NCBI GenBank assembly: GCA_030153605.1
Contig: JASKLO010000017.1
Span: 1-33,907, forward strand
Source of the DNA: Thermosipho sp. (in: thermotogales)
Lineage (GTDB): Bacteria > Thermotogota > Thermotogae > Thermotogales > Fervidobacteriaceae
Direction of reading: 5' to 3'
DNA length: 33,907 nt
Part shown: positions 1,066 through 7,166 of the stretch, one piece after another
Layout of the letters: each line of letters starts with the position of its first letter
Numbering within the stretch: position 1 is the first letter of the stretch
The notes under the pieces: model-generated
What the model saw: the letters and a program-made list of their open reading frames with translations, nothing else
Databases searched by the model: none
Told to the model about the DNA's origin: nothing
Program-made: the position numbers and the translations under genes

Positions 1066-2345
1066 TTATAAAGAATGCGTATATATGGCTTGATGGTAAG
1101 TTTGTAAAAAAAGATCTTTGTATTAAAAACGGTAAGTTTGTAGAAAAGTGTACAATTGATGATAATATCATTAACCTGGAAGGTAAATATATCCTTCCAG
1201 GTTTTTCTGATTCTCATGCACATGTACTAGGTGTAGGTATTAAGAAAATTTCGTTAGATTTAAAAAATTTTTCTTTCGAAACAATATTTAGCTCAAAAGA
1301 AAATATTATTATTGGTAGAGGGTGGGAAGAACTTCCTGAAAATATACGTATTTTGGATGAAATAACAAAACCAATAATTTTGATTAGAAAATGTGGACAT
1401 GTAGCATGGTTAAATAAAAATGCCCAAAAAGAATTGGGTTTTAAAGATTATTTAATTTATGAAGATGAAATTGAAAAAGTTTGGACGCTTCTTCCTGAGG
1501 ATTTTTACGTATCAGCGTTCAAAAATGCTGAAAAGGAATTTATAAAGCATGGTATTACCAGTGTTCATTCTGATGATTTTCACGGATTGAGATTTGAAAC
1601 ATTAACAAAGCTTCTTAAAACTAGTAAATTGAGAATATTTGAAAAATTATATGCTACAGATCCTTGGAATTATGAATTTGGCGAATATGGAATAAGTAAA
1701 ATATTTGGAATTAAATTATTTGCTGATGGATCATTAGGCGGAAAAACTGCTTTTTTATCACAACCATATAAAAACACAAAAAATTTTGGGAAATTTGTAC
1801 TTGCAAGTAACTTTTCTAAAATAGTTGATTTTGCAAATAAAAATAATTTGCAAGTTTGCGTTCATGCTATAGGCGATGAAGCATTAACACGAGTTTTAGA
1901 TTTATTTGGTAAAAATTTCGGGCATAGAATAATACATGCTCAATTAATAAAGAAATCGGATTTTTCAAGACTTAAAAATTTTGTTTTTTCAGTTCAGCCG
2001 CATTTTTATTTTGAAGATGAAGAAATTCTTAAAAATATTTCTTTAAATGACGTTTTGTTTTATCCTTTTAAGGAAATGTATAATGATGGAATAAAAATTT
2101 CTTTTTCAAGCGATGCACCAGTGTCTCCATTTGAACCTAAATATATTTTAGAAAACGCCTTTAAAATGGGTTTTTCTTTTGAAGATTCTATAAAACTATA
2201 TACCGAAGCTTCAGGTGAAATTATTAATGAAAAAATAGGAAAATTAAAACCAGATTACAATGCCGATTTTGTGGTCTATAATGACAAGTTGCTTTCATCA
2301 ATTAATGCTGTTTTTATAAATGGGCAAAAAGTTTATGCTTCATAG
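1062..2345 (+). CDS. YtcJ-like metal-dependent amidohydrolase
   Basis: This is a member of the amidohydrolase superfamily, which hydrolyses C-N bonds with a metal-dependent TIM barrel. The metal-binding HxH lies in [10 protein letters not shown] (His52, His54). Later conserved blocks are [17 protein letters not shown] and [11 protein letters not shown], the latter carrying the catalytic Asp, and the C-terminal beta-strand segment [10 protein letters not shown] is typical. These features match the YtcJ group of exoenzyme regulators and predicted amidases, whose substrates are mostly unknown. At 427 residues it is shorter than many YtcJ proteins, which exceed 500. The start ATG overlaps the pfkA stop. 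The 3' end overlaps hydE, on the other strand, by 13 bases, leaving no room for a terminator between these convergent genes. A terminator-like hairpin lies within codons 38-49. The substrate is not predictable. Confidence 0.82.
1173..1206 (+). terminator. terminator-like hairpin inside the amidohydrolase gene
   Basis: A perfect 11-bp inverted repeat, AACCTGGAAGG (1173-1183) and CCTTCCAGGTT (1193-1203), has a 9-base AT loop and runs into five Ts (1202-1206). It lies about 107 bases after the pfkA stop, in codons encoding the conserved NLEGK...LPGF stretch. It has the shape of an intrinsic terminator on the pfkA-sense strand, but coding constraint explains part of the sequence. Confidence 0.4.
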
Positions 2346-3379
2346 TTTAGTAGAGTTTTTATTCTGAACCCATGAGTTTTTCCAACTTCCCTATTTAAAC
2401 TTTTAATCATTCCTCTTACACAATCTATGCATGCAGTATCTGCTTCAAACAAACAAATTTTGTTGGGATATAGAGTATAGTTTGGTCTGTAAGGATTTGG
2501 TGTTAAATTTGGCATTATTACATTTGCACCGCATTTTAAGGCCATTTGTCTTCCAAAAGGATGTATACTTCCCATAGCAGTGGTTGCAGGAATATTGGCA
2601 GTAGGAATTAAAATCCTAGATAAAGCGATCATTTTTAATGTTGTTGTTAAATCTCCGCCTTTTTCTCTATTCAAAGGTGTATCAGGATTAGGAATAAAAG
2701 GTCCAATTCCAATCATATCGGAATCTATTTCTCTTAAGAAAATTAAATCTTTTGCTAATTCTAATGGTCCTTGTCCTGGAAGTCCAACCATACAACCGGC
2801 ACCTATTTCATAACCTAGTTCTTTGAGTTTTATTAAATGATTTTTTCTGTTTTCAAAAGTATCACTAGGATGTAAATTTTTATATAATATTGGATCAGCT
2901 GTTTCATGCCTCATTAAATATCTATCTGCTCCTGCTTCTTTCCAGATTTTGTATTCTTCAAAATCTCTTTCGCCGATACTAAGTGTAACTGCAAGATTCA
3001 ATTTTTTTATTTCAATAATAAGATTTTTAATAATTTCGGTATTATAATATGGATCTTCTCCAGATTGTAAAACCACTGTTTTGATACCCTTTTCGGCTAT
3101 AAGCTTTGCGCGTTCTAAAATTTCTTGAGGGGTCATTCTGTATCTTTTTAAATTTTTATTCTCATTTCTAAGTCCACAGTACAAACAATCCATTCTACAA
3201 ATATTTGAAAATTCAATAATTGCTCTTATGTGTACTTCATTACCTACATATTTTTCTCTAATTTCATCAGCGATTTCAAATAATTTTTCATCAAATTTAT
3301 TTGTAGAAAGAAGGAAAACCAAATCCTCAATAGTTATGGAATCTCTTCTATACCTTAACTTATTTAATATTTCTGACAA
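2333..3379 (-). CDS. hydE: [FeFe]-hydrogenase maturase HydE (radical SAM)
   Basis: HydE is a radical S-adenosylmethionine enzyme that, with HydG and HydF, assembles the two-iron subcluster of the [FeFe]-hydrogenase H-cluster. The [4Fe-4S]/SAM motif CRMDCLYC (CX3CX2C) lies near residue 65. A C-terminal CX7CX2C triad in KICLFEADTACIDC matches the optional second cluster of Thermotoga maritima HydE, which many other HydE proteins lack. Other BioB-like blocks are VVLQSGEDPYY and MVGLPGQG. The frame is open from a TTG at 3385, but that codon abuts GAGGTGA. The TTG at 3379 has 6-base spacing and is the preferred start (348 residues). It overlaps the upstream small gene by 20 bases, implying coupled translation. 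HydF is not in this window. Confidence 0.95.
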   Translation of the reverse strand: MSEILNKLRYRRDSITIEDLVFLLSTNKFDEKLFEIADEIREKYVGNEVHIRAIIEFSNICRMDCLYCGLRNENKNLKRYRMTPQEILERAKLIAEKGIKTVVLQSGEDPYYNTEIIKNLIIEIKKLNLAVTLSIGERDFEEYKIWKEAGADRYLMRHETADPILYKNLHPSDTFENRKNHLIKLKELGYEIGAGCMVGLPGQGPLELAKDLIFLREIDSDMIGIGPFIPNPDTPLNREKGGDLTTTLKMIALSRILIPTANIPATTAMGSIHPFGRQMALKCGANVIMPNLTPNPYRPNYTLYPNKICLFEADTACIDCVRGMIKSLNREVGKTHGFRIKTLLNYEA

Positions 3380-3620
3380 TGTCAATCACCTCATTCAATA
3401 ATTGTTGTAATTCCGCATCTAATGAATTTAAATTTTCTGAAAATATCACAAAGTTTTCATTTTCCCAAAGTATTTTTGGTGGTAAAAAATATTCTTTTCC
3501 TGCTTTTAACTTGTTTATAAAAGAAATTCTTTTTCCGATTTTTTGTGCTATCCAAATTTTACAGTTATATTTTACTGATATCTTTTCTAATAGTTCTTTT
3601 AATTTTTCAAAATCTGACAT
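3360..3620 (-). CDS. small unknown protein between hydG and hydE
   Basis: This 86-residue soluble protein does not match a family I can name. It has an N-terminal charged helix (SDFEKLKELLEKI), a likely beta-rich middle (KIWIAQKIGKRISFINK, ILWENENFVIFSE) and a C-terminal leucine-rich helix (LDAELQQLLNEVIDIV). There is no membrane segment and only one Cys. The ATG at 3620 is preferred over a GTG at 3629 because AGGTG lies at good spacing before it. The start overlaps the hydG stop (3607) and the stop overlaps the hydE start, so it is a real gene locked into the maturase operon. By position it is a candidate hydrogenase-maturation accessory factor. That role is inference only. Confidence 0.75.
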   Translation of the reverse strand: MSDFEKLKELLEKISVKYNCKIWIAQKIGKRISFINKLKAGKEYFLPPKILWENENFVIFSENLNSLDAELQQLLNEVIDIVRNIK

Positions 3621-5022
3621 CTCTTTCACCTGAATTTATTTTTTCCAATCCTTTTATAATAGAAGATTTTTGAGGTTCTGTAATTTTATTTAATTCATTT
3701 TGAATTATTTTCTCTCCCAATTCTTGTGTTTTTAAAGATGCATAATCGTTTAAATATTCTTTTAATGTAAATAGTGCATTTGGGGTACAAAATCTTTTTA
3801 CAAAACCTGGAATAGCAAATTCCATGAAATGTTCTCCAGTTCTACCAGCTCTATAACATGCTGTACAGAAAGAAGGAATATAATTTTCTTTGAGAAGTTC
3901 ATAAATAACTTCTTCTAAAGATCTAGTATCACCTAAGATAAATTGGCTTTTTTTAATCACCTCTGGATCAGTTTCAGAATATGAACCAACTCCTATACTT
4001 GATCCGGCATCAATTTGAGAAACACCTAATTTTAATACTTCTCTTCTTAATTCTACTGGTTCTCTAGCAGTTAAAATTAAACCTGTATAAGGAACCGAAA
4101 GTCTTAAAATTGCAACAAGTTTTTTGAAGTCTTCATCATTAACTTGGTAAGGAGGTCTTTGCGCAATTGGAGTTCCCACTGCTGGTTCAATTCTAGGGAA
4201 TGAAATGGTGTGAGGCCCTACTCCAAATCTTTCTTCAAGATGGATTGTATGGTAAATTAATCCCATCACTTCATATTTCCAATCATATAAACCAAATAAT
4301 GCCCCTATTCCAACATCATCTATTCCGGCCATCATAGCTCTGTCTAAACCATATAATCTCCAAGCAAAATTCGATTTTGGCCCTCTAGGGTGCATTTTTC
4401 GGTATGTAGGTAGATGATACGTTTCTTGGAAAATTTGAAAAGTACCTATACCAACATTTTTAATGATTTTATATCCTTCAATTGTTTGTGGGGCAGCATT
4501 AACATTAACTCTACGAATTTCACCATTTCCAAGTTTTGTATTATAAATTAGGTCAATTGTTTTGGCCATAAATTCAGGAGAATATTTTGGATGTTCTCCA
4601 TATACTACAATTAATCTTTTATGTCCCTTAGAAATCAAAGCTTTTACTTCTTTTTGTAATTCTTCCATTGAAAGTGTTTTTCTTACTACTTCTTTATTGG
4701 AAATTCTAAAACCACAATATACACAATCATTAACACATTCATTACCAATGTATAATGGCGCAAAAAGTACTATTCTATTACCATAAACTTTTTCTTTTAA
4801 AGTTCTAGCTGCTTCAAAAATTTCTTCCCATAATTCATTGTCTTCGACATTTAATAAAGTAGCAACCTCATCTGGTTGAAGTCTTTGTTTTGAAATTGCT
4901 TTTTGTAGAATTTCTCTAACTTTAGTTTTATCAGGTTTTACATTTTGTTTTAAAAGATCAATAATTTTTTCTTCGTCAATGAAAGTTTTTAAGTTTTCTT
5001 TCTCTTTTATAAATATGTACAT
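3607..5022 (-). CDS. hydG: [FeFe]-hydrogenase maturase HydG (radical SAM tyrosine lyase)
   Basis: HydG cleaves tyrosine to p-cresol and dehydroglycine, producing the CO and cyanide ligands of the H-cluster as an Fe(CO)2(CN) synthon. The radical SAM motif CVNDCVYC gives ligands Cys96, Cys100 and Cys103. The C-terminal motif CTAC followed by 22 residues and another Cys (386, 389, 412) binds the auxiliary cluster that carries the dangler iron, and it separates HydG from its relative ThiH. The length of 471 residues is normal. The ATG at 5022 is preceded by AAGGAG at correct spacing. It lies 11 bases after the TM1266-like gene and overlaps the small gene downstream, so all four maturation genes look like one transcript. 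Confidence 0.97.
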   Translation of the reverse strand: MYIFIKEKENLKTFIDEEKIIDLLKQNVKPDKTKVREILQKAISKQRLQPDEVATLLNVEDNELWEEIFEAARTLKEKVYGNRIVLFAPLYIGNECVNDCVYCGFRISNKEVVRKTLSMEELQKEVKALISKGHKRLIVVYGEHPKYSPEFMAKTIDLIYNTKLGNGEIRRVNVNAAPQTIEGYKIIKNVGIGTFQIFQETYHLPTYRKMHPRGPKSNFAWRLYGLDRAMMAGIDDVGIGALFGLYDWKYEVMGLIYHTIHLEERFGVGPHTISFPRIEPAVGTPIAQRPPYQVNDEDFKKLVAILRLSVPYTGLILTAREPVELRREVLKLGVSQIDAGSSIGVGSYSETDPEVIKKSQFILGDTRSLEEVIYELLKENYIPSFCTACYRAGRTGEHFMEFAIPGFVKRFCTPNALFTLKEYLNDYASLKTQELGEKIIQNELNKITEPQKSSIIKGLEKINSGERDVRF

Positions 5023-5033
5023 TTTTCCACTCC

Positions 5034-5276
5034 TTATGTTAGAGGTATACTTTTTACTTTTACATTTTTAATCTGTCCAAGTTTTCCTGTAAATCCGCCT
5101 AGAATATCGTTATTAGCTTTGAAGATGACAAAAATTACTGCCATATTTTCTGATTCCAATGGATAACCAACTCTTAATTTTATGTACTTTGCATAGGCAT
5201 GAAGTAATTCATTAACTTTGCCATATGCTAGGTTTCTATCTTTAATAACAATATCCACTGAATAATATCTTTCCAA
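5034..5276 (-). CDS. TM1266-type iron-only hydrogenase system regulator
   Basis: This 80-residue protein matches the putative iron-only hydrogenase system regulator family (TM1266 of Thermotoga maritima), a small ACT/NikR-C-like ferredoxin-fold domain. Recognisable blocks are an opening beta strand (YYSVDIVIKDR), YGKVNELLHAYA, LRVGYPLESENMAVIFVIFKA and GFTGKLGQIKNVKVKSIPL. It has no DNA-binding domain, so a direct transcription-factor role is doubtful; the family name rests on structure and gene neighbourhood. The start is a TTG (5274-5276) that matches the family N-terminus. Its ribosome binding site, an AAGGGGG, sits inside the 3' arm of a leader hairpin whose U-tract runs into the start codon. 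Expression is therefore probably controlled by leader folding. Confidence 0.9.
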   Translation of the reverse strand: MERYYSVDIVIKDRNLAYGKVNELLHAYAKYIKLRVGYPLESENMAVIFVIFKANNDILGGFTGKLGQIKNVKVKSIPLT

Positions 5277-5373
5277 AAAAATTCCCCCTTCCTATTTTTG
5301 CACCAAGGAAGGGGGAATATTGTCCCTATAACTTTTTCCCCTTTCCTTGGTGTCAGGATTAAATCCCTTCACC
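5277..5373 (-). promoter_or_regulatory. candidate attenuator leader of the hydrogenase maturation operon
   Basis: Read on the minus strand, three segments compete. Segment A (5352-5338) is CACCAAGGAAAGGGG. Segment B (5318-5301) is ATTCCCCCTTCCTTGGTG. Segment C (5292-5281) is GGAAGGGGGAAT. B pairs perfectly with C over 12 bp (loop 14) and is followed by seven Ts, giving an intrinsic terminator that also buries the ribosome binding site of the TM1266-like gene. B can instead pair with A (10 bp, one A-C mismatch, 4 bp), which releases C. A further hairpin at 5373-5349 uses the CACC of A and could block A-B pairing. It matches no riboswitch consensus I know. Both folds cannot exist together, which is the hallmark of attenuation. 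Confidence 0.65.
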
Positions 5374-5414
5374 TCAGAAAGAAATATTTAATTTTAATAA
5401 AATTCAATTAATAA

Positions 5415-7166
5415 TTAATCTGATAAAACTTTATTTTTGTTTTTGGATCTATCTGTGTAGTAAGTGTGTAGTAATTCATGAGCAATATGACTATAAGGAT
5501 GTTCAAGAAATTCAGCGTATAATTTTTGTACATCTGGATTTTCGTGTGATCTTCTTAATGTGCTTCTTTCATCTATTGTGTAAATAGCATTAGCTCTTTT
5601 TTGAATAATATCAGGATCGAGACTCTTAGGTTGTCCGCCACCACCGATACATCCACCTAAACAAGCCATAATTTCAATAAAGTCATAATATCTTCGACCG
5701 TCTCTAATATCATCAAGAAGTCTTTTTACACTTGCAGTACCATGAGCAATAGCAACTTTAAATTTTTTCCCTTTTATTTCAATTTCAGCTTCTCTAATTC
5801 CTTCAAGACCTCTTACAGCGTTAAATTCAAGTTTTGGTAGTTTTTCTTCTGTAAGTATCTCATATGCTGTTCTAAGTGCTGCTTCCATAACACCACCAGT
5901 AACACCAAAAATTGCACCTGCACCTGTTGAAGTTCCCAAAGGATTGTCATAATCTTCATCAGGAAGACCAGCAAAGTTGATTTCTTTAAATTTGATTAAT
6001 TTTGCAAGTTCTCTTGTTGTAATAACGTAATCAGTAACTTTAATTTCTCTTCCATCTTCAAGTTTTATTTTTTGTTGAGGTCTTGTAATTTCATCTTTTT
6101 TAGCTGTACAAGGCATTATTGAAACCATTATTATATCTTCAGGATCTACTCCTATTTTTTTAGCAAAATATGTTTTAACAACACTACTCATCATTTGTTG
6201 TGGAGATTTAGCTGATGATACATTTTTAATAAATTCAGGGTATTGTTTTTCTAACAAATTAATCCATCCAGGGCAACAACTTGTAAACATTGGGAAGGGT
6301 CCGCCTTCTTTTAATCTATGAATAAGTTCTGTTCCTTCTTCCATTATAGTAAGGTCTGCTGCAAAATTAGTGTCGAAAACGTAATCAAAACCCAATCTTC
6401 TAATAGCAGCTACCATTTTTCCTGTACTTATTGAACCAGGTTCCATTCCAAATTCTTCACCTATAGCAACTCTTACTGAAGGTGCTGTTTGAGCAATAAG
6501 GATTTTTTCCTTCTTTTCTAAGATTCTTAATACTTTTTTCCAATCTGGGGTTTCATAAATTGCTCCAACAGGACAAAGATATGAACATTGACCACAAGAA
6601 ATACAATCAGTTTCATAAACAGGTTTGTCAAAAGCTGTTTGAGGAATTGATTTATAGCCACGTTCAACCATTGAATAAATTTCCATTCCCTGAATTTCAC
6701 TACATACTCTTACACATCTTTGACACTTTATGCATTTTGAAAGGTCCCTTTGAATAGAAGGACTACTGTCATCAAAAATATCACTAAGTTCGGATGGAGG
6801 GAAAAGTGGTTTAACATCATAAATATGAACAAGTTTTTTAAGTTCACATCTTTGATCTGCTTCACAATACATACAATCATTTGGGTGATTTGCCATTATT
6901 AAGGATAGATTAAATTTTATAGCATTAGAAACTCTTTCTGAATTTGTTTTTATCTTCATTCCATCATATACTTTTGTTGTACATGCAGGTTGAAGAGTTC
7001 TTGCGCCTTCAATTTCAACAACACAAACTCTGCAAGCACCAATTGGTTCAAGTTCAGGATGGTGACAAAGAGTAGGAATTTTAAATCCAACTTTTTGAGC
7101 AGCTTCTAATACAGTAGAGTTTTCAGGGACTTCATATTCTTTATCATTTATAAGAATTTTTACCAT
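5415..7166 (-). CDS. hydA: [FeFe]-hydrogenase catalytic subunit, M3 type, HndD-like
   Basis: This enzyme makes or oxidises H2 at the H-cluster. In order it carries an N-terminal [2Fe-2S] domain (Cys34, 45, 48, 62), a His-Cys cluster (His94, Cys98, 101, 107), two [4Fe-4S] sites (Cys145/148/151/155 and 188/191/194/198) and the H-cluster domain. That domain has all three signatures: TSCCPGW (with the proton-relay Cys297), MPCTAKKDE and EIMACLGGCIGGGG. At 583 residues it matches NADP-reducing hydrogenase subunit HndD. It lacks the extra C-terminal [2Fe-2S] domain of the T. maritima trimeric HydA. No diaphorase (HydB) or HydC partner lies alongside. The ATG follows GAGGAGG, about 100 bases downstream of an extended -10 promoter. 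The maturase operon lies immediately downstream behind the attenuator-like leader. Confidence 0.96.
   Translation of the reverse strand: MVKILINDKEYEVPENSTVLEAAQKVGFKIPTLCHHPELEPIGACRVCVVEIEGARTLQPACTTKVYDGMKIKTNSERVSNAIKFNLSLIMANHPNDCMYCEADQRCELKKLVHIYDVKPLFPPSELSDIFDDSSPSIQRDLSKCIKCQRCVRVCSEIQGMEIYSMVERGYKSIPQTAFDKPVYETDCISCGQCSYLCPVGAIYETPDWKKVLRILEKKEKILIAQTAPSVRVAIGEEFGMEPGSISTGKMVAAIRRLGFDYVFDTNFAADLTIMEEGTELIHRLKEGGPFPMFTSCCPGWINLLEKQYPEFIKNVSSAKSPQQMMSSVVKTYFAKKIGVDPEDIIMVSIMPCTAKKDEITRPQQKIKLEDGREIKVTDYVITTRELAKLIKFKEINFAGLPDEDYDNPLGTSTGAGAIFGVTGGVMEAALRTAYEILTEEKLPKLEFNAVRGLEGIREAEIEIKGKKFKVAIAHGTASVKRLLDDIRDGRRYYDFIEIMACLGGCIGGGGQPKSLDPDIIQKRANAIYTIDERSTLRRSHENPDVQKLYAEFLEHPYSHIAHELLHTYYTDRSKNKNKVLSD

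Follow-up and report, generated by a model that had tools for sequence, protein, structure and literature searches.

The DNA analysed here is a 33,907-nucleotide stretch from Thermosipho sp., referred to below as the window, and carries on its minus strand, in this order, hydA, a gap of 138 nt, a TM1266-like gene, hydG, an 89-amino-acid open reading frame (ORF) and hydE (Table 1). The leader RNA under study sits ahead of the TM1266-like/hydG/hydE genes, as an earlier sequence-only reading of this DNA had stated, and a scan of it for a sigma-70 promoter returned none. The 89-amino-acid ORF occupies the same place in most Thermotogota operons and has no match in NCBIfam or Pfam. The TM1266-like product scores well above the cut-offs of its family (94.8 vs 60.8 bits; 87.4 vs 27), and its predicted model (pLDDT 95.9) superimposes on TM1266 itself (PDB 2NZC) with a TM-score of 0.95 and shows fold similarity to the C-terminal domain of NikR (E 7e-5) and to IlvN (E 4.6e-5). 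TM1266, of which the 2NZC entry holds four chains, is a stand-alone regulatory domain of the NikR-C/ACT type that lacks a DNA-binding part. A weak second paralogue of about 90 amino acids, below the family cut-off, is encoded at G000:C25:22181-22399 and has equivalents in most Thermotogota genomes.

Table 1. Genes and RNA features around the maturation-operon leader (window coordinates)
Feature	Position	Strand	Description
HydA	5415..7166	(-)	[FeFe] hydrogenase, group A6; upstream of the RNA element
Four-segment leader	5383-5275	(-)	predicted attenuator with segments Z, A, B and C
Z-A hairpin	5341..5381	(-)	conserved anti-antiterminator hairpin; compensatory changes in P1, P2 and P3
P1	5381-5377 / 5346-5341	(-)	CUUUC / GGAAAG; extended to 5383/5339 in the minimum-free-energy (MFE) fold
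P2	5373-5370 / 5352-5349	(-)	GGUG / CACC; internal loops on both sides
P3	around 5367-5356	(-)	
Left half-site	5366..5377	(-)	CUGA-N4-RAGG, CUGAGGUGAAGG; conserved in 96 unique sequences
Right half-site	5345..5356	(-)	CUGA-N4'-RAGG, CUGACACCAAGG; two-fold related to the left half-site in the hairpin
Segment A	5338..5352	(-)	CACCAAGGAAAGGGG; shared by the hairpin (as 3' strand) and the antiterminator (as 5' strand)
Segment B	5301..5318	(-)	AUUCCCCCUUCCUUGGUG; shared by the antiterminator (as 3' strand) and the terminator (as 5' strand)
Segment C	5281..5292	(-)	3' strand of the terminator; ribosome-binding site AAGGGGG at 5290-5284
Seven-T run	5275..5281	(-)	after the terminator stem; overlaps the TTG start codon (5276-5274)
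TM1266-like gene	5034..5276	(-)	TIGR03959, PF21699; first controlled gene, proposed effector, ACT/NikR-C-like fold
hydG	3607..5022	(-)	radical SAM maturase for the H-cluster
89-amino-acid ORF	3360..3629	(-)	between hydG and hydE, overlapping both; no family match
hydE	2333..3385	(-)	radical SAM maturase for the H-cluster

The sequence-only reading had described segments A, B and C at exactly the positions of Table 1 and had proposed that B pairs with either A or C, with an extra hairpin at 5373-5349 that could block A. The mutually exclusive folds were borne out, and the B-C stem is indeed a perfect, GC-rich helix of 12 bp (13 in the MFE fold) that runs through seven T into the TTG codon and sequesters the ribosome-binding site within its C strand. 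The extra hairpin is present but had been drawn too short; it spans about 5383-5339, 10 nt longer on its 5' side, and it does more than block A, since segment A forms its 3' strand and the four segments thus compete in three pairings (Z-A, A-B and B-C). The A-B antiterminator stem comprises 15-16 bp, and the 3' end of B, which lies inside the terminator loop, still matches A. Folding is stronger than in shuffled sequences for the leader (z -3.25), for B-C alone (-3.75) and for the A-B part (-3.54), with 0 of 200 shuffles as good. In a series of growing transcripts the MFE fold is Z-A alone at 52-70 nt (-20.1) and A-B at 88 nt (-33.4), and for the full-length leader it is Z-A plus B-C (-42.7, compared with -35.4 when A-B is enforced), which suggests that A-B can win as B emerges, unless Z-A is held. 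Anti-antiterminator, antiterminator and terminator are thus predicted to be built from four overlapping segments, the logic of PyrR-type systems, and this predicted structure together with the A-B covariation described below would identify the leader as a transcription attenuator. We regard the four-segment architecture as well supported and very probable.

As the sequence-only reading had anticipated, the leader fits no known riboswitch class. A scan of the window against Rfam 15 gave no family at its gathering threshold, and across fifteen related loci no leader was matched, the only matches being RNase P and a cobalamin riboswitch elsewhere. The PyrR RNA model scored 24.5 bits against a threshold of 54 and the L10_leader model 18.6 against 44; weak matches to eukaryotic microRNA families were rejected because they merely reflect the long stem. 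The main texts of several RNA-discovery papers and an attenuator survey (PMC2864571, PMC8632094, PMC11109978, PMC2965389) make no mention of a hydrogenase element; the leader may have been listed earlier under another name.

The Z-A hairpin is kept, with compensatory changes, in 14 leaders of the same family upstream of TM1266-like genes, and a covariance model search detected it in 64 of 103 Thermotogota genomes, all of them among the 70 that carry HydG, and in 0 of the 33 that do not (Fisher p ~3e-21, kinship ignored). The covariance models were built from the very sequences that they describe, which are related by descent, and their E-values are rough. In this search, 77 of 79 motif copies lie directly 5' of maturation operons that begin with TM1266-like/hydG/hydE, with hydE, with hydG, with hydF (identity confirmed by TIGR03918) or with an operon-heading copy of hydA, so that comparison between genomes ties the element to the maturation genes. 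One exceptional copy (G036:C78) is found just 3' of hydA with no maturation gene after it, and the last match (G096:C75), inside a reading frame, was discarded as chance. In a 56-sequence model that covers the phylum and beyond, 93.4% of the cells in the hairpin are paired and 123 are double-changed, compared with at most 29 when the pairing is slid and a mean of 38 in shuffles; a covariance model that includes other phyla agrees with it.

The competing A-B pairing was examined in 61 terminator-type Thermotogota leaders (55 unique). Cognate A-B duplexes reach -26.3 kcal/mol, and permuted partners reach -19.5 +/- 0.43, with -21.7 as the best of 5000 permutations. Moreover, N4', the four variable bases of the right half-site, pairs fully with the terminator-loop part of B in 28 of the 55, compared with 20.1 +/- 1.8 when partners are swapped (2000 swaps, none above 26) and 2.1 when the loops are shuffled. 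These loop bases are not needed for B-C, and their match to N4' is therefore direct comparative evidence that A-B matters. Covariation is strong both in the hairpin and in A-B. Among the relatives A is retained with changes that compensate those in B, the opposite of the outcome that the sequence-only reading had named as its refutation. Athalassotoga and Mesoaciditoga are among the f8 genomes, where, as in some Neomarinimicrobiota, the hairpin supplies the AGGAGG ribosome-binding site from its own 3' strand. In the terminator type, by contrast, Z-A leaves B free to pair with C. Comparison thus shows that the two types have an OFF logic in common, in which a held hairpin would turn the genes off.

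The core of the hairpin consists of two half-sites that are strongly conserved in 96 unique sequences (left/right: C 100/100%, U 100/96%, G-or-A 100/100%, A 97/98%; then R 94/100%, A 96/90%, G 94/93%, G 100/99%) and are identical to each other at a mean of 7.1 of the 8 conserved positions. The bases between them, N4 and N4', are complementary and not identical (378 of 384 pairs, in 25 versions, in the extended set), and the half-sites are 4 to 14 nt apart. The half-sites are predicted to pair into a symmetric helix that reads C-G, U.G, tandem G.A, four base pairs, tandem A.G, G.U and G-C, with the geometry of the G.A pairs inferred from the sequences. Such a two-fold symmetric RNA site suits a dimeric protein. 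The dyad-symmetric core goes beyond what had been read from the single locus, as do the occurrence of the element throughout the phylum and more widely, its copies before hydF and its versions that hide a ribosome-binding site.

Outside the Thermotogota, the motif recurs at maturation genes in Neomarinimicrobiota, Ignavibacteriales and some Clostridia. A DNA pattern scan located it ahead of TM1266-like genes in two MAGs, one from Ignavibacteriales and one from Neomarinimicrobiota; pattern matches in Butyrivibrio, inside a peptidase U32 reading frame, were set aside as chance. With the covariance model it was detected in 15 of the 199 genomes of Neomarinimicrobiota searched, where it precedes hydG or TM1266-like/hydE, several copies having the A-B-C attenuator and others the form that overlaps the ribosome-binding site; three further matches in this phylum look like chance. 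One Neomarinimicrobiota genome (G127) has three copies, one of which is split from TM1266-like/hydE/hydG by a two-gene insertion that looks AbiE-like and another of which has no hydrogenase gene nearby. Matches in Clostridia are found in the interval between TM1266-like and hydG, ahead of hydG or of hydF, or beside aspA, and divergent copies beside TM1266-like genes have N4 sequences that are wholly different yet complementary (UUGC/GCAA, GUCA/UGAC, GCUC/GAGU). A strict symmetric rule gave 6 matches in 40 clostridial TM1266-like loci and 0 in 20 shuffled sets. Detection in this class is low, with 9 matches in 391 genomes, some of them chance, and about 8 of 40 TM1266-like neighbourhoods on close inspection. 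TM1266-like proteins above the cut-off are encoded in 234 of the 391, mostly without a recognised motif, which leaves two readings: in these genomes the protein acts on other targets, or its RNA has changed too far to be recognised. Six matches with no hydrogenase gene nearby (L153-L155, L160, L186 and L187) were treated as chance. Five clostridial hydG leaders also contain, some 60-200 nt past the motif, a conserved stretch, CCUGACGAGAUGGA ... AAGGGGGAAyrGAUAUG, and a separate terminator; this stretch is possibly a second regulatory RNA element.

The sequence-only reading had named iron, a metabolite or the TM1266-like protein as candidate signals; co-occurrence and symmetry favour the protein, through which iron or a metabolite might act. 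All 64 motif-bearing Thermotogota genomes encode a TM1266-like protein, in at least eight of them (G027-G030, G038-G040 and G101) at a site away from the motif. Five genomes with HydG and without TM1266-like (G066-G070) have no motif (0 of 5), and a congener (G071) has both; the five belong to one genus, in which a single loss could have removed both neighbours. Genome G023 encodes HydG and TM1266-like, and no motif was found in it. In G066-G070, a tRNA-like sequence precedes the start of the hydG-hydE-hydF operon by a few hundred bases. The co-occurrence, the symmetry of the RNA and the NikR-C/ACT fold without a DNA-binding domain lead us to favour TM1266-like as an RNA-binding feedback partner, and we infer, with somewhat better than even confidence, that it is the effector of the leader. 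NikR shares this fold and adds a DNA-binding domain; TM1266-like stands alone, and an RNA target would therefore be a new use of the fold, no RNA-binding protein of which was identified in this analysis.

The leader probably works as an OFF switch: a TM1266-like dimer would lock Z-A and thereby force termination or hide the ribosome-binding site. The Z-A hairpin would form first during transcription. Left unheld, it would yield A to B, and the polymerase would read through into TM1266-like, hydG and hydE. A TM1266-like homodimer that clamps the hairpin at the two CUGA/RAGG half-sites, 4 bp apart, would keep A occupied; B would then pair with C, transcription would stop in the U-run, and any longer transcript would have its ribosome-binding site hidden. 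The RNAs before hydF would be switched in the same way in trans, and the versions with the ribosome-binding site in the hairpin would have translation blocked directly. The ACT/NikR-C-like domain may sense a signal, which could be iron, a maturation intermediate or an amino acid, tyrosine for instance. Whether TM1266-like proteins make up a group of RNA-binding attenuation proteins, stand-alone dimers that sense H-cluster assembly, clamp a tandem-GA hairpin and govern a maturation regulon in several phyla, we consider an evenly balanced question.

The main rival is a metabolite riboswitch, in which the hairpin would be the aptamer of an unrecognised OFF class whose ligand is a metal or small molecule (SAM, tyrosine, iron and an H-cluster precursor are examples), with TM1266-like a merely co-inherited gene of the pathway. 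The highly conserved unpaired bases, the use of both terminator and ribosome-binding-site platforms, the occurrence in many phyla and the restriction to genes of a single pathway would all be expected of a riboswitch. However, the core is a small, single, two-fold symmetric hairpin, unlike most aptamers, and in HydG-bearing Thermotogota the motif and TM1266-like are present or absent together; we judge this explanation unlikely. Another protein, such as a maturase, a general factor or the product of the 89-amino-acid ORF, could bind in place of a co-inherited TM1266-like, as a symmetric tandem-GA helix suits protein dimers in general and most Thermotogota operons keep the ORF, but G066-G070 have HydG without the motif and the ORF is not recognised in several motif-bearing genomes, for example G058-G065, which makes this improbable. 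A strong intrinsic terminator does stand between hydA and the operon, and the leader could be no more than a constitutive terminator of the ordinary kind, or a spurious fold without switching. This would account poorly for four mutually exclusive segments with compensatory changes, or for an element that also occurs before hydF and in forms that hide a ribosome-binding site, and is very improbable. A DNA operator for a transcription factor, suggested by the direct repeat that the two 12-mers form at the DNA level, was rejected as scarcely credible because their spacing is variable (4 to 14 nt) and the covariation of N4 with N4' preserves complementarity, not a repeated sequence.

With TM1266-like as the proposed binder, the leader resembles the PyrR attenuators of pyr operons, which also have the order anti-antiterminator, antiterminator, terminator, are turned off by stabilisation of the first hairpin and have a regulator whose gene stands first in the operon. 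They differ in RNA sequence and in the genes controlled, and the symmetric core and the ACT/NikR-C-like proposed protein are particular to the hydrogenase leader. The L10 (rplJ) leader, as set out in PMC4538822, is bound by a protein of its own operon and acts by transcription attenuation; the likeness lies in the proposed binding by an operon protein, and the protein and pathway are different. OFF riboswitches follow the same switch logic, with one sensor hairpin joined to two expression platforms (terminator or ribosome-binding site), but the hydrogenase leader has no Rfam riboswitch match, and its symmetric core and co-occurrence with TM1266-like point to a protein.

How the output of the HydE, HydF and HydG maturases is matched to need is poorly understood, and for the TM1266 family, whose members carry no annotation beyond that of putative regulators and which has had a crystal structure since 2006, no established function was found. 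A conserved RNA switch that lies on exactly the maturation operons, and whose symmetric form predicts a partner, bears on both; the leader also adds an unlisted class of cis-regulatory RNA to genome annotation and offers a means of adjusting hydrogen output in thermophiles. When T. neapolitana is exposed to CO2, TM1266-like rises 5.98-fold, hydG 6.39-fold and hydE 7.52-fold, compared with 1.78-fold for hydA and 1.28-fold for hydF (PMC7039931). The maturation operon is thus able to respond separately from hydA. As hydF does not follow the TM1266-like/hydG/hydE operon, another input exists; the two operons that carry the motif do not simply respond in parallel, which counts against the switch proposed here. 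In C. thermocellum, a Rex site has been reported at hydG (PMC8457756), which indicates that DNA-level control coexists. The uncoupling of hydA from the maturases that the sequence-only reading had proposed fits the Thermosipho genome, but in three genomes (G001, G003 and G005) the element precedes a copy of hydA too; the motif there lies between tandem hydA paralogues, so that the hydA copy heads the controlled operon.

Several further arrangements were observed at these operons. At nine loci an aspartate ammonia-lyase gene lies after or before hydF behind the same leader, and its product is a possible ammonia source for the bridge of the H-cluster. In one genome, hydG occupies two open frames (G060:C16:13137-14521), through either a frameshift or an assembly error. 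In G027-G030, the motif hides the ribosome-binding site of a short ORF before hydG, with a terminator hairpin inside the ORF or just after it, and translation of this ORF could prevent termination.
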